A stretch of 64,000 nucleotides of DNA from Aequorivita vladivostokensis. GTDB lineage: Bacteria; Bacteroidota; Bacteroidia; Flavobacteriales; Flavobacteriaceae. Made by a program: the position numbers and the translations under genes. Below are positions 40,033-45,725 of this stretch, one piece after another. The notes beneath the pieces are model-generated. The model had not been told where the DNA came from and made no database searches. It worked only from the letters and a program-made list of their open reading frames with translations. Every line of letters begins with the position of its first letter. The first letter of the stretch is position 1. The stretch lies in contig NZ_JSVU01000001.1 of assembly GCF_000952855.1 (NCBI RefSeq), forward strand, positions 372,001 through 436,000, in the 5' to 3' direction.

Positions 40033-40989
40033 ATGAGTGAAAAAGAAGTGAAAAACCTAGAAGAAATTTTCGAAGCCCGCATTGCGCGCGACGAAAAGAT
40101 AGAGCCGAAAGACTGGATGCCGGAGAAATACCGTCAGACCCATATTCGGCAGATAAGTCAGCACGCCCATTCGGAAATTATTGGGATGCTTCCCGAAGGC
40201 AACTGGATTACCCGTGCACCTTCATTACGAAGAAAAGCAGCATTACTTGCAAAAGTGCAGGATGAAGCTGGACACGGATTGTATCTGTATTCAGCTTGTG
40301 AAACCCTTGGTATTTCGCGGGATGAATTATACGAACAATTGCATTCCGGAAAGGCGAAATATTCTTCCATTTTCAACTACCCAACAATCACTTGGGCCGA
40401 TATGGGCGCCATTGGCTGGTTGGTTGACGGTGCAGCGATCATCAATCAGGTACCGCTTTGCAATACGTCTTTTGGACCGTATGCAAGAGCGATGGTGCGT
40501 GTTTGCAAGGAAGAAAGTTTTCACCAGCGTCAAGGTTTTGAAATTATGCTAACGCTTTGCCGCGGTACGGAAGAACAAAAACCCATGGCGCAAGATGCGC
40601 TAAACCGATGGTGGTGGCCAAGTTTGATGATGTTGGGGCCAACAGATGCGGAGTCGGTTCACACCGAGCAATCCATGAAATGGAAATTGAAACGTAAGAG
40701 TAACGACGAGCTTCGTCAGCAATTTATAGACCAGACTGTACCGCAGGCAGATTTGCTGGGACTTACAATTCCGGATCCAGATTTGAAATTTAATGAAGAA
40801 ACCGGACATTATGATTTCGGCGAAATTGATTGGGATGAATTTTGGCAAGTAGTAAAAGGCCACGGTCCGTGCAACAAAGAACGAATGAGCGCCCGGGTGA
40901 ACGCATGGAACAATGGCGAATGGGTTCGCGATGCAGCAATGGCTTATGCGGAAAAGAACGCAAATAGAAAAGTAGCGAAAGCAAGTTAA
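40033..40989 (+). CDS. paaA: Phenylacetyl-CoA epoxidase catalytic subunit PaaA
   Basis: A 318-residue di-iron oxygenase subunit that converts phenylacetyl-CoA to its ring-1,2-epoxide, in complex with PaaB, PaaC and PaaE. The ferritin-like carboxylate/histidine motifs are visible: [17 protein letters not shown] (with the ExxH) and [14 protein letters not shown] (second ExxH). The N-terminus [19 protein letters not shown] is typical. The gap to paaB is a long inverted repeat. Confidence 0.97.
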
Positions 40990-40992
40990 ATA

Positions 40993-41071
40993 GACGTGAG
41001 ACGTGAGATATGAGACGTGAGAAAGGCGTCTAAATCTCACATCTCACATCTCAAATACAATATCTCATGTC
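40993..41071. repeat. Inverted word repeat between paaA and paaB
   Basis: Left half is built from GACGTGAGATATGAG-type words, right half from CTCACATCTCA and ATATCTCATGTC, so the two halves are mutually inverted. The paaB ATG lies at its right edge. No gene lies inside, unlike the related repeat around the S23-type gene. Confidence 0.75.
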
Positions 41072-41357
41072 TGAAAAGAAAAACTGGCCCCTTTGGGAAA
41101 TATTTGTCCGCAGTAAAAATGGCTTGGAGCACCGTCATTTTGGTAGCCTCCACGCCGCCGATGCAGAAATGGCATTGGAAAATGCCCGCGATGTTTACAC
41201 GCGCCGAAACGAAGGCGTGAGCATTTGGGTGGTGGAAAGCAAACATATTACAGCCTCCAATCCCGCTGATAATGGCGAACTTTTTGAGCCTGCGCAGGAC
41301 AAAGTATATCGCCACCCCACTTTTTATGATTTGCCGGATGAGGTGAAGCATATGTAA
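41067..41357 (+). CDS. paaB: Phenylacetyl-CoA epoxidase subunit PaaB
   Basis: A 96-residue small subunit of the epoxidase. Family motifs: WPLWEIFVRSKNGLEHRH, HAADAEMALENARDVYTRR (in part) and VEGVSIWVV-like GVSIWVVESKHI. It contributes to the multimeric PaaABC assembly and has no catalytic residues of its own. A TTCCCGC palindrome starts two bases after its stop. Confidence 0.95.
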   Translation: MSEKKNWPLWEIFVRSKNGLEHRHFGSLHAADAEMALENARDVYTRRNEGVSIWVVESKHITASNPADNGELFEPAQDKVYRHPTFYDLPDEVKHM

Positions 41358-41359
41358 AA

Positions 41360-41377
41360 TTCCCGCGAAGGCGGGAA
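41360..41377. repeat. TTCCCGC palindrome, copy A
   Basis: TTCCCGC-GAAG-GCGGGAA followed by TCTCATCA and an A-rich tail. Directly after paaB. Confidence 0.85.
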
Positions 41378-41448
41378 TCTCATCATTTGAAAGCAGAAAT
41401 TCGGTTTTATGTAAAAGAAAAAATGGTATAATAGATATCCAGCTAATT

Positions 41449-41490
41449 TGATTCGGAAAATATAAAATATGAACGCAACATCAAAAGATT
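41449..41490 (+). repeat. Direct repeat of the paaC start region, left copy
   Basis: Contains TGATTCGGAAA, an AT spacer and ATATGAACGCAACATCAAAA. It is nearly identical to 41917-41960, which holds the real paaC start. The two copies bracket the GIY-YIG gene. Confidence 0.88.
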
Positions 41491-41549
41491 TCCGCGAAGG
41501 CGGGAATCTCATCAATATGAAACCGAAATCCGATTCTCTAAATAAATGA
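41469..41549 (+). pseudogene. Decayed copy of the paaC 5' end
   Basis: A 26-codon remnant beginning MNATSKD, the same first seven residues as PaaC, then running through a palindrome (FREGGNLIN) into a stop. Its TGA at 41547 overlaps the GIY-YIG ATG at 41546 as ATGA, so ribosomes starting here could reinitiate on the nuclease gene. It is best explained as one half of a duplicated paaC initiation region. Confidence 0.75.
41490..41506. repeat. TTCCCGC palindrome, copy B (one C lost)
   Basis: TTCCGC-GAAG-GCGGGAA followed by TCTCATCAAT. It lies in the decayed paaC 5' copy. Confidence 0.8.
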
Positions 41550-41821
41550 AAAATTGGTATGTCTATATTATGTCCAACAAACCGAAAGGTGTCATTTACA
41601 TTGGCATTACAGATAATATTGATGCTCGGGTTGAAGAACATAAAAACAAGGTTTTTCGAAATTCCTTCACAGCAAAATACAATTGCGATAAACTGGTTTA
41701 TTATGAAGAATTCAAAGAGGGGTTTAAAGCTTCCCAACGGGAAAAACAGTTTGATTTAAGTGTAAACTGGAACAATGAAAATTTAATTTATAAAACAAAC
41801 CGTTTTCCCATTCGGGAGTAA
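41546..41821 (+). CDS. Small GIY-YIG nuclease inserted in the paa operon
   Basis: A 91-residue single-domain GIY-YIG endonuclease of the YhbQ/UvrC-like small type: WYVYIMSNKPKGVIYIGITDN contains the WYVYIMSN and VIYIGIT strands, then ARVEEHK, TAKYNCDKLVYYEEF and REKQF. The last residues (NRFPIRE) run into a degenerate palindrome and depart from the family end. It has no role in phenylacetate breakdown. Copies of a TTCCCGC palindrome stand on both sides, and the region carrying the paaC start is duplicated around it, so it looks like a small mobile unit. Its start codon overlaps the stop of the decayed paaC start copy. Confidence 0.85.
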   Translation: MKNWYVYIMSNKPKGVIYIGITDNIDARVEEHKNKVFRNSFTAKYNCDKLVYYEEFKEGFKASQREKQFDLSVNWNNENLIYKTNRFPIRE

Positions 41822-41838
41822 TTCCCGCGCAGACGGAA
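41822..41838. repeat. TTCCCGC palindrome, copy C (degenerate)
   Basis: TTCCCGC-GCAG-ACGGAA followed by TCCCATCAATTAAAAACAG, like the tails of copies A and B. It starts right at the GIY-YIG stop. Confidence 0.7.
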
Positions 41839-41916
41839 TCCCATCAATTAAAAACAGAAACTTGATTTTCACGATAACAAATAGTCGGTATCTAAATGTC
41901 AGAAACCATTTAAATA

Positions 41917-41960
41917 TGATTCGGAAATAAATTAAAATATGAACGCAACATCAAAAGATT
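41917..41960 (+). repeat. Direct repeat of the paaC start region, right copy
   Basis: TGATTCGGAAA, then AT-rich bases, then ATATGAACGCAACATCAAAA, holding the functional paaC ATG at 41939. Confidence 0.88.
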
Positions 41961-42709
41961 CCCGCCTTCGCGGGAATTACATCCTAACAATAGCAGACAA
42001 CTCCCTAATCCTAGCCCAGCGCTTGGGCGAGCTCTGCGGCCACGGCCCAACTTTGGAAACGGATATTGCCCTAACCAATATTGCTCTGGATTTGCTGGGC
42101 CAGACCCGAAGCTATTACCAATATGCCGCAAAGATTTCCGAAGAAGATAAAACTGAAGATGATATTGCCTTCTTAAGAATTGAAAGGGAATACAAAAACT
42201 GTCTCTTGGTTGAACAGCCAAACACACATTTCGGCTATGTTATCGGGCGTCAGTTTCTCTTCGATGTTTACCATTTTATGTTGATGGAGAAGCTACAAAA
42301 TAGTCCCGATGAAACTTTGGCCGCAATCGCCAAAAAAGGAATTAAGGAAGTGAGTTACCACAAACGATTTTCTTCCGATTGGGTGAAACGTTTAGGCGAC
42401 GGCACCGAGGAAAGTAAAGCTAAAATGCAAGAAGCAATTGACGATCTGTGGCGATTTACGGATGAACTTTTCTTTATGACCGAAGCTGAAAAAGAAATGG
42501 CAAAAGAAGGAATTGGCATTGATGTTTCAACTTTCAAAGAAAAATATTACGAAGAGGTTTCCGAAGTTTTAAAACAAGCCACGCTTACTGTTCCGGAAAA
42601 TAAATATTTCACAAAAGGCGGAAAAGAGGGGATTCACACAGAGCATATGGGTTATATTTTGGCAGATTTGCAATATATGCAACGCACATATCCTAATATG
42701 CAATGGTAA
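41939..42709 (+). CDS. paaC: Phenylacetyl-CoA epoxidase structural subunit PaaC
   Basis: A 256-residue ferritin-like subunit that forms the core heterodimer with PaaA; it lacks the metal site and is structural. Family motifs: NSLILAQRLGELCGHGPTLE, TNIALDLLGQTRSYYQYAA and EVSYHKRFSSDWVKRLGDGT in part. The first residues MNATSKDSRLRGN do not belong to the family; codons 7-13 (DSRLRGN) are the translation of a palindrome. The native start region is duplicated upstream around the GIY-YIG gene. Confidence 0.95.
   Translation: MNATSKDSRLRGNYILTIADNSLILAQRLGELCGHGPTLETDIALTNIALDLLGQTRSYYQYAAKISEEDKTEDDIAFLRIEREYKNCLLVEQPNTHFGYVIGRQFLFDVYHFMLMEKLQNSPDETLAAIAKKGIKEVSYHKRFSSDWVKRLGDGTEESKAKMQEAIDDLWRFTDELFFMTEAEKEMAKEGIGIDVSTFKEKYYEEVSEVLKQATLTVPENKYFTKGGKEGIHTEHMGYILADLQYMQRTYPNMQW
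41959..41976. repeat. TTCCCGC palindrome, copy D, inside paaC
   Basis: TTCCCGC-CTTC-GCGGGAA, inverted with respect to copies A-C. It is translated in frame at PaaC residues 7-13. Confidence 0.88.
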
Positions 42710-45317: not shown

Positions 45318-45326
45318 GGTATGAGG
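45311..45326. repeat. GGTATGAGG repeat, left flank of the S23-type gene
   Basis: Tandem GGTATGAGGTATGAGG. The paaH stop codon TGA (45315-45317) lies within it. Inverted relative to 45745-45768. Confidence 0.75.
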
Positions 45327-45347
45327 CTCCAAAAAAGAATTAGATTT

Positions 45348-45725
45348 ATGAAATCGGAATATCATTTTAGATTTGAGGAATTACAGGTTTACCAAAAAGC
45401 GATTGCTTTTGGGGAAATTGTAAATTCCTTGGTCAAGAAATTTCCAAGGGATGAACGATTTGAATTAACATCCCAATTCAAAAGAGCTTCAGATTCTATT
45501 GCACTGAATATTGCGGAAGGGTCATCAGGTACGGATAGACAGTTTTATAATTATTTGGGAAATTCTTGGCACAGTGCGGAAGAATGCGTGGCCTGCAGTG
45601 CAAAAGCAAGATTGCGTAATTATATTAATTTTGAAGAAGATGAAGAAGTGCGAAAAAATATTACCGAGCTTTCCAAAATGATTACAAGTCTAAGGAATAC
45701 AATTTCAAAAAGAATAAAAAAATAG
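45348..45725 (+). CDS. Four-helix-bundle protein (S23/IVP family)
   Basis: A 125-residue helical protein of the S23-like family, first described from intervening sequences of 23S rRNA genes: FRFEELQVYQKAIAFGEIV at the start, QFKRASDSIALNIAEGSSG in the middle, and HSAEECVACSAKARLR. It has no role in phenylacetate breakdown. ATG 45348 was chosen over one nine codons upstream, which falls inside a repeat. It interrupts the paaH-paaI junction and is bracketed by inverted GGTATGAGG / CCTCATACC repeats, so it appears to be an inserted unit. Biochemical function is unknown. Confidence 0.88.
   Translation: MKSEYHFRFEELQVYQKAIAFGEIVNSLVKKFPRDERFELTSQFKRASDSIALNIAEGSSGTDRQFYNYLGNSWHSAEECVACSAKARLRNYINFEEDEEVRKNITELSKMITSLRNTISKRIKK

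Follow-up and report, generated by a model that had tools for sequence, protein, structure and literature searches.

The junction between paaB and paaC in Aequorivita vladivostokensis holds what is probably the decayed copy of a selfish element that is very small, has a single gene and would home to the junctions of operon genes. We give this explanation as a whole, including the decayed state of this copy, a probability of roughly 0.65. On the sequence evidence, the element is a recurring unit with a preference for operon junctions, with empty and decayed sites, duplications and open frames in some copies, clades of the nuclease that are specific to a site, and cross-genus pairs whose nucleases resemble each other more closely than their flanks do.

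The locus in the window

The locus lies in a stretch of 64,000 nucleotides, here called the window. An initial annotation of this DNA had reported a 91-residue GIY-YIG gene between paaB and paaC and a doubled paaC start region, and both were confirmed. The parts of the locus, in window positions, are:

41067..41357, + strand: paaB, upstream host gene (Pfam PaaB, NCBIfam TIGR02157)
41360..41377, + strand: palindrome 1, left-end type TTCCCGCGAAGGCGGGAA with tail TCTCATCA (pattern match)
41449..41490, + strand: left copy of the paaC start region, 42 nt (sequence repeat)
41489..41506, + strand: palindrome 2, left-end type, tail TCTCATCA, one mismatch in an arm
41546..41821, + strand: GIY-YIG nuclease gene, 91 aa (Pfam PF01541, E 2.8e-14)
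41822..41838, + strand: palindrome 3, degenerate and one base short, tail TCCCATCA instead of TCTCATCA
41917..41960, + strand: right copy of the start region, 44 nt (sequence repeat)
41939..42709, + strand: paaC, downstream host gene (Pfam PaaA_PaaC, NCBIfam TIGR02158)
41959..41976, - strand: palindrome 4, right-end (inverted) copy, inside paaC

Palindrome 1 starts 2 bp past the paaB stop codon. It recurs in identical form and position in Aequorivita vitellina (L087), and its left-end form is found in other genera. Palindrome 3 follows the nuclease stop directly, and palindrome 4 is translated in frame within PaaC as SRLRG; the N-terminus of PaaC is altered by the insert. Four TTCCCGC palindromes, one of them inverted, had been annotated and are present, but the tail described as common to three is shared by two; the third, which is degenerate, has TCCCATCA in its place. 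The right copy of the start region comprises bases before the paaC start, the start codon and codons 2-7, and the final 28 nt of the two copies are identical. The ATG of the left copy, at 41469, opens a 26-codon leader, MNATSKDFREGGNLINMKPKSDSLNK (41469-41549), whose TGA overlaps the nuclease ATG. The annotated MNATSKD and the overlapping stop therefore stand, whereas a stop right after MNATSKD does not, as 19 more codons come first. Translational coupling of a leader stop to the nuclease ATG is not general (13/39).

At up to three mismatches, the genome (3.27 Mb) has 32 strand matches to the TTCCCGC palindrome, two of them from a single site, C9:57052, that counts on both strands; the reversed control has 3. 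Within these ~620 bp lie three of the matches, where about 0.005 would be expected from the other 29. The nuclease of this clade is present in the genome as a single copy, a point against the homing explanation. The two other GIY-YIG genes of the genome (39-42% identity) have no such palindromes beside them. An Rfam scan of 40900-42200 returned eight matches at E up to 1, which were discarded because all are far under gathering scores, and PADLOC gave marginal matches only. Elsewhere in the window, the paaA-paaB junction (40992-41072) is filled by an inverted repeat, GTGAGACGTGAGATATGAGA..., without a GIY or IVP gene, and an IVP ORF (Pfam PF05635) lies at another junction, 45321-45725, with surrounding inverted repeats (local score 41).

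Alignment with 15 relatives revealed a 20-residue in-frame gap in the window nuclease against all of them, while Y7, Y18, R28, H32 and E66 are retained. In the modelled structure of an intact relative (L289), helix 74-84 falls within the absent block. We infer that the window nuclease is probably inactive and, because it has lost 20 residues, that this copy is probably not autonomous.

The doubled start is probably later than the insertion, because L087, the nearest relative, carries the element and the palindrome in paaC and lacks the duplicated start. For the window alone, we therefore lean slightly towards an event that followed the arrival of the element, either a local duplication or a recombination of palindromes with each other, rather than a new insertion. 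The right copy sits between the nuclease and the palindrome in paaC, whereas in the E1/E2 copies described below it lies beyond the right palindrome; in four of those copies, a comparable repeat joins an older right end to start codons. A weak similarity also spans a 135/143-bp unit of palindrome, tail, spacer and start region (local score 36; shuffled 95% 29, maximum 40), and the window duplication may reach this whole unit. However, the start regions are near identical and the spacers barely alike, which is unexpected from one tandem duplication without an extra constraint. The annotation had proposed that the element duplicated its target and thereby restored paaC and gained a start. Target duplication and an offered start are indeed seen in some other copies, but the doubled start of the window is probably no scar of the original insertion, given its absence from L087.

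The paaB-paaC junction across the genus

All 28 genus genomes gave PaaC, so 28 junctions were compared. The nuclease is present at three of them, in the window (L083), in A. vitellina (L087) and in A. viscosa (L109), and nuclease remnants are present at two (L099, L101). These five members have DSRLRG, DSHLRG, DSRLLG or DSRLLE at the PaaC start, compared to none of the 23 others, in which the start has LYNY, LYKY or LYYY (20 members) or MPNSFxFN (three members). The other inserts, sorted by eye, are of an inverted-repeat type with GGCATTAGG in 5 genomes and of a type with GAAATCGAAATC or alike in 10; the eight remaining junctions have other short repeats or little. Both insert types mostly come with 23S-IVP-like ORFs (Pfam on one ORF per type), and in L108, for which the available stretch is short, the repeat alone is visible.

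The paaC tree requires 16 or more changes of insert type and does not unite the five GIY rows in one clade (p-AU 9e-17), and the two sister rows of the window carry the two IVP insert types. As judged from these sequences, the paaB-paaC junction is an insertion hotspot with turnover. A single arrangement shared by all relatives, with no empty site, had been named in the annotation as the outcome that would speak against a mobile unit; the 28 genomes hold several different inserts at the junction instead.

In L084-L110, two repeat types bracket IVP ORFs at the junction used by the GIY element, and close paaC relatives differ in type. At three IVP junctions (L084, L088, L094), the MPNSFxFN start of PaaC apparently comes from an ATG within the right repeat of the insert, so start capture may not be peculiar to the GIY element. 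Five genus members (L095, L097, L098, L103 and L104) have a CCTTGAGCGCAGTCGAAAGG-like repeat at the junction. In A. viscosa (L109), the N-terminus of the nuclease is extended by palindrome-coded residues, MGGARKDSHLRGN, as in PaaC.

Structure, sites and spread of the unit in relatives

In Flavobacteriaceae relatives the unit is ~380 bp long and consists of a hairpin, a ~104-aa nuclease and an inverted hairpin past the stop. In other genera the left palindrome is TTCCTGCGNAGGCAGGAATCTC and the right one is inverted. From one genome per species (84,980 species), at least 592 candidates were obtained, and the best 80 of at least 536 confirmed relatives were analysed. A palindrome was called at no more than 4 mismatches to TTCCYGCNNNNGCRGGAA with at least 5 of 7 pairs. 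Among these best 80 loci, the left palindrome was present in 63, the right in 67 and both in 53, leaving 27 without both at that threshold. The count of 63 is a lower bound because the consensus missed a left hairpin of other sequence in paaA/paaB copies (L234, L236); a few hairpins in the counts, such as those of L241 and L260, have 4 mismatches and are weak. The left palindrome lies exactly at -35 from the nuclease ATG in 26 of the 80, and the palindrome background elsewhere in the same loci is 0.35 per kb. Wherever the tail could be read, the hairpin pair was inverted. Hairpins of a TTCCTGC type also occur in relatives and were covered by the inverted-repeat test.

The flanking ORFs of the best 80 loci are almost always co-directional with the nuclease (downstream 78/79, upstream 77/79). 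Recurrent junctions were dut/nucleotidyltransferase (34), enoyl-CoA hydratase/hexapeptide-protein (12), thiolase/paaZ-like (8) and E1/E2 (7), followed by paaA/paaB (7), paaI/paaJ (3) and single others; the gene names other than PaaA, PaaB and PaaC were read from translations. The paaB/paaC copies in this set are L281, L289 and, assigned by its downstream gene alone, L293. Across genomes of the family, the palindrome pattern was found in 92 of 187 with a nuclease match compared to 8 of 112 without (Fisher p 4e-15, kinship ignored), where a match at E up to 1e-3 takes in other GIY subfamilies. The relation between palindromes and nuclease that the annotation had asked for is thus present in the family. 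One dispersed inverted palindrome doublet was found (L036, at 976 and 1042).

Empty sites were found in congeners. In G230 the element lies between dut and the nucleotidyltransferase gene, while the matched flanks are 11 bp apart in G325, 7 bp in G326 and 40 bp in G327. In G324 the dut junction has a different insert next to a lone palindrome, and both G325 and G324 have element copies at other junctions (L213-L215). Among the best 30 of 42 dut junctions in Winogradskyella, the genus of G157, 7 hold the nuclease or a remnant, 9 are 25-50 bp long and 14 hold decayed hairpins or other inserts. We propose that copies decay through deletion, with the hairpins left behind. The recurrence at different junctions and the empty sites in relatives support the annotated idea that nuclease and palindromes form a mobile unit. 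An 8-bp TAAAATAA repeat in G230 is a single, A+T-rich case.

Duplication of target codons was detected at some sites. In a test of flank pairs, 5 of 53 exceeded the 99% level of mismatched pairs, and four of these are E1/E2 copies with repeats of 41-48 nt. There, the first codons of the lipoyl-domain gene are duplicated (48/48 nt in L282, 41/41 in L266, 42/43 in L273 and more weakly in L272); such duplications also occur in L060, L069 and L199. In L282, L069 and L199 the left copy comes directly after the gene's own start, with no remnant of an older element. In L060, L266, L272 and L273 the left copy is preceded by what remains of an older right end, and these four duplications may therefore be nested or tandem rearrangements rather than simple insertion scars. 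A target-site duplication of fixed length is ruled out, as lengths range from none detected up to 48 nt. Target duplication is not a fixed property of the element, because 48 of the 53 pairs were not above the null and the long duplications are confined to E1/E2 and the window.

Each of the six E1/E2 copies in which both ends are present carries a start inside the element (5 ATG, 1 TTG) from which the frame is open through the right hairpin; an example, read from the nuclease 3' end, is MKDNKRFPLSWELKMPKMGES. An alternative in-frame ATG lies 6-14 nt past the hairpin in E1/E2 copies, and start capture therefore falls short of proof. Of the 67 loci that have the right hairpin, 9 show an ATG close to the nuclease stop whose frame stays open across the hairpin. 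The upstream ORF ends within the element in 7 of 51 loci, with FLRRQES tails.

The nuclease tree (66 rows, 7 sites) requires 13 site changes compared to at least 31 in 200 shuffles. The tree omits 10 of the 80 loci, with a frame below 88 aa, and the site count a further 5 of 71 rows without a recurrent site; the alignment has few columns, many forks are open, and parsimony is blind to gain versus loss. Genus labels change 28 times for 26 genera on the same tree, compared to at least 39 in 50 shuffles. Between L219 (Meridianimaribacter) and L220 (Winogradskyella), identity is 94% for the nuclease compared to 78% and 77% for the flanking genes, and the block of high identity stops near the element end. 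The nuclease exceeds both flanks in similarity in 233 of 325 dut-site pairs. The identities of nuclease and flanks are correlated (r 0.65 and 0.69); because of this correlation and the fit of the genus labels, vertical descent accounts for much of the pattern. As far as the tree resolves them, nuclease clades follow insertion site across genera, as in homing.

Beyond the family, 161 of 395 genomes of the phylum match the nuclease profile at 1e-15. Inverted repeats of several sequence types exceeded the shuffled 95% level at 23 of 29 testable phylum loci (30 were returned, including those of the window and G157). Homologues in a plasmid collection had a significant inverted repeat in 5 of 6 cases (Neisseria gonorrhoeae, Planktothrix, Shinella, Spirosoma and Sinorhizobium); that of Photobacterium was not significant. 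A tblastn search of the nuclease against 50,697 phage records gave no match. The Planktothrix plasmid homologue (L360, 1201-1485) has a gene for a type IIL restriction enzyme on one side and drmA, a DISARM gene, on the other.

Proposed mechanism, rival explanations and known systems

The intact element would consist of a left hairpin, a single-domain GIY-YIG gene of ~104 codons and the same hairpin inverted past the stop. As the driver of movement, the nuclease would recognise a target where two operon genes meet and cut there or close by, or would cut hairpins formed by the palindromes in single-stranded DNA, and repair would copy the element into the break. The element would thus move horizontally into the same junction of other strains, with occasional jumps to new junctions. 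Its landing would be soft on both sides. Upstream, the element lies directly past the stop codon, or the upstream gene finishes inside the left hairpin. Downstream, several of the copies that enter the first codons of a gene have these codons twice, and a start at the 3' end of the nuclease gene, if used, would read through the right hairpin. Copies would then lose sequence by deletion while the hairpins stay.

A different account would make the nuclease a host-kept, hairpin-targeting single-strand nuclease with its own repeat family, of the Ssn/NTS type, which acts on palindromes in DNA uptake or repair and which, like the palindromes, spreads by ordinary transformation and homologous recombination rather than by inserting itself. 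The N. gonorrhoeae homologue (44% identity) agrees with this, as it has ATTCCCGC...GCGGGAAT repeats of dRS3 form on both sides in one record of the two found; dRS3 is described in PMC10745880. The palindromes also occur singly in the genome, and they track nuclease presence across the family. In fold, the L289 model is one compact domain (residues 98-111 with pLDDT <50) that resembles UPF0213 proteins and Slx1, a branched-DNA nuclease. PDB 1ywl matches the nuclease in a sequence search at E 1.7e-4, and the top Foldseek match of the model is 1zg2 (E 4.8e-3), with none reaching E 0.001. Pfam gave GIY-YIG and T5orf172 only, with no transposase domain. The host-kept nuclease alone does not predict the unit spacing, the placement at operon junctions or the target duplications, and we consider it an unlikely full account, though one that is biochemically compatible with a homing element. 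It is highly improbable that the palindromes are ordinary operon hairpins, serving mRNA stability or attenuation, with an unrelated host gene among them by chance. Hairpins of other sequence and 23S-IVP genes occur at the same junction, so the junction itself may favour hairpins. That explanation is nevertheless largely refuted, because the nuclease is enclosed by such pairs of hairpins in many genera and at several junctions that have nothing to do with each other, and because presence differs between congeners.

The selfish homing element has likenesses to several known systems. As outlined in PMC2988022, T4-like phages carry seg genes, small free-standing GIY-YIG genes between conserved genes at several sites. 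The element resembles these homing endonucleases in placing a nuclease gene between conserved genes at several sites, with empty sites in relatives; it differs from that outline in residing in bacterial chromosomes, in its inverted terminal palindromes and in the duplication of some target codons. Nuclease clades that match insertion sites, and horizontal spread into one and the same junction (13 changes compared to at least 31; L219/L220), are also as in free-standing homing endonucleases. In contrast to I-TevI-type enzymes, the ~104-aa nuclease has no separate DNA-binding region beyond the catalytic domain. REP/REPIN sequences with RAYT, in the account of PMC3116915, are small repeated palindromes in inverted pairs with an associated nuclease gene, and the dispersed palindromes (32 compared to 3 in the control), the inverted doublet and the nuclease gene described here are similar. 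The enzyme, however, is GIY-YIG rather than a tyrosine (Y1/HUH) transposase, the gene-bearing unit is common and the tail is TCTC. The tail tag of REP sequences is GTAG. The RAYT/REP likeness suggested by the annotation is therefore kept as an analogy only, insertion-site clades fitting a homing-like element better.

Ssn is a GIY-YIG single-stranded DNA endonuclease of Neisseria with NTS repeats. The nuclease resembles it in being a UPF0213-sized single-domain protein of ~100 aa with a Neisseria homologue among near-identical palindromes; to our knowledge, Ssn has been described without an operon-junction unit, start capture or site-specific clades. Rickettsia palindromic elements are palindromes in frame within host proteins, and here too a palindrome is read in frame in a host protein, but its place is among the first codons of the gene; we know of no nuclease gene inside those elements. 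The 23S rRNA intervening sequences are rRNA elements with IVP genes. Like them, the element places a small ORF in inverted repeats, and IVP ORFs occur at the same paaB-paaC junction in relatives, but these belong to a different protein family in which Pfam detects no GIY-YIG domain. In contrast to a conventional transposon or IS, the element has no transposase domain, and its duplication is not fixed, ranging from none detected to 48 nt.

No account of a unit of GIY-YIG gene and hairpins was found in the literature, as covered, incompletely and excluding preprints, by titles and abstract openings. Tentatively, and with rather more doubt than for the homing element itself, such units may form a distinct class in which one GIY-YIG nuclease, together with an inverted hairpin pair, makes up the whole of a homing unit suited to operons. 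The upstream protein could end with the left hairpin and the downstream one begin with the right hairpin and a start codon that overlaps or adjoins the nuclease stop, and duplicated target codons would complete the latter protein; the dRS3-like palindromes of other phyla would be dispersed footprints. If so, insertion would be tolerated even by central genes, those for 2-oxo acid dehydrogenases among them, and these would guard the element from loss. Two widespread orphan features, short ATTCCCGC-type hairpins and small GIY-YIG genes, are joined here in one apparently mobile unit. The unit offers a testable route by which a selfish element may insert among the first codons of an operon gene that the host needs and yet not destroy it. 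Natural cases (the identical 48-nt duplication and the empty sites of congeners) exist in culturable bacteria, so that a direct assay is possible for homing by a single-domain GIY-YIG nuclease. Other GIY-YIG subfamilies (L111, L113, L114 and L034) show closely similar copies clustered at one locus, four of them in L111, with these palindromes absent nearby.
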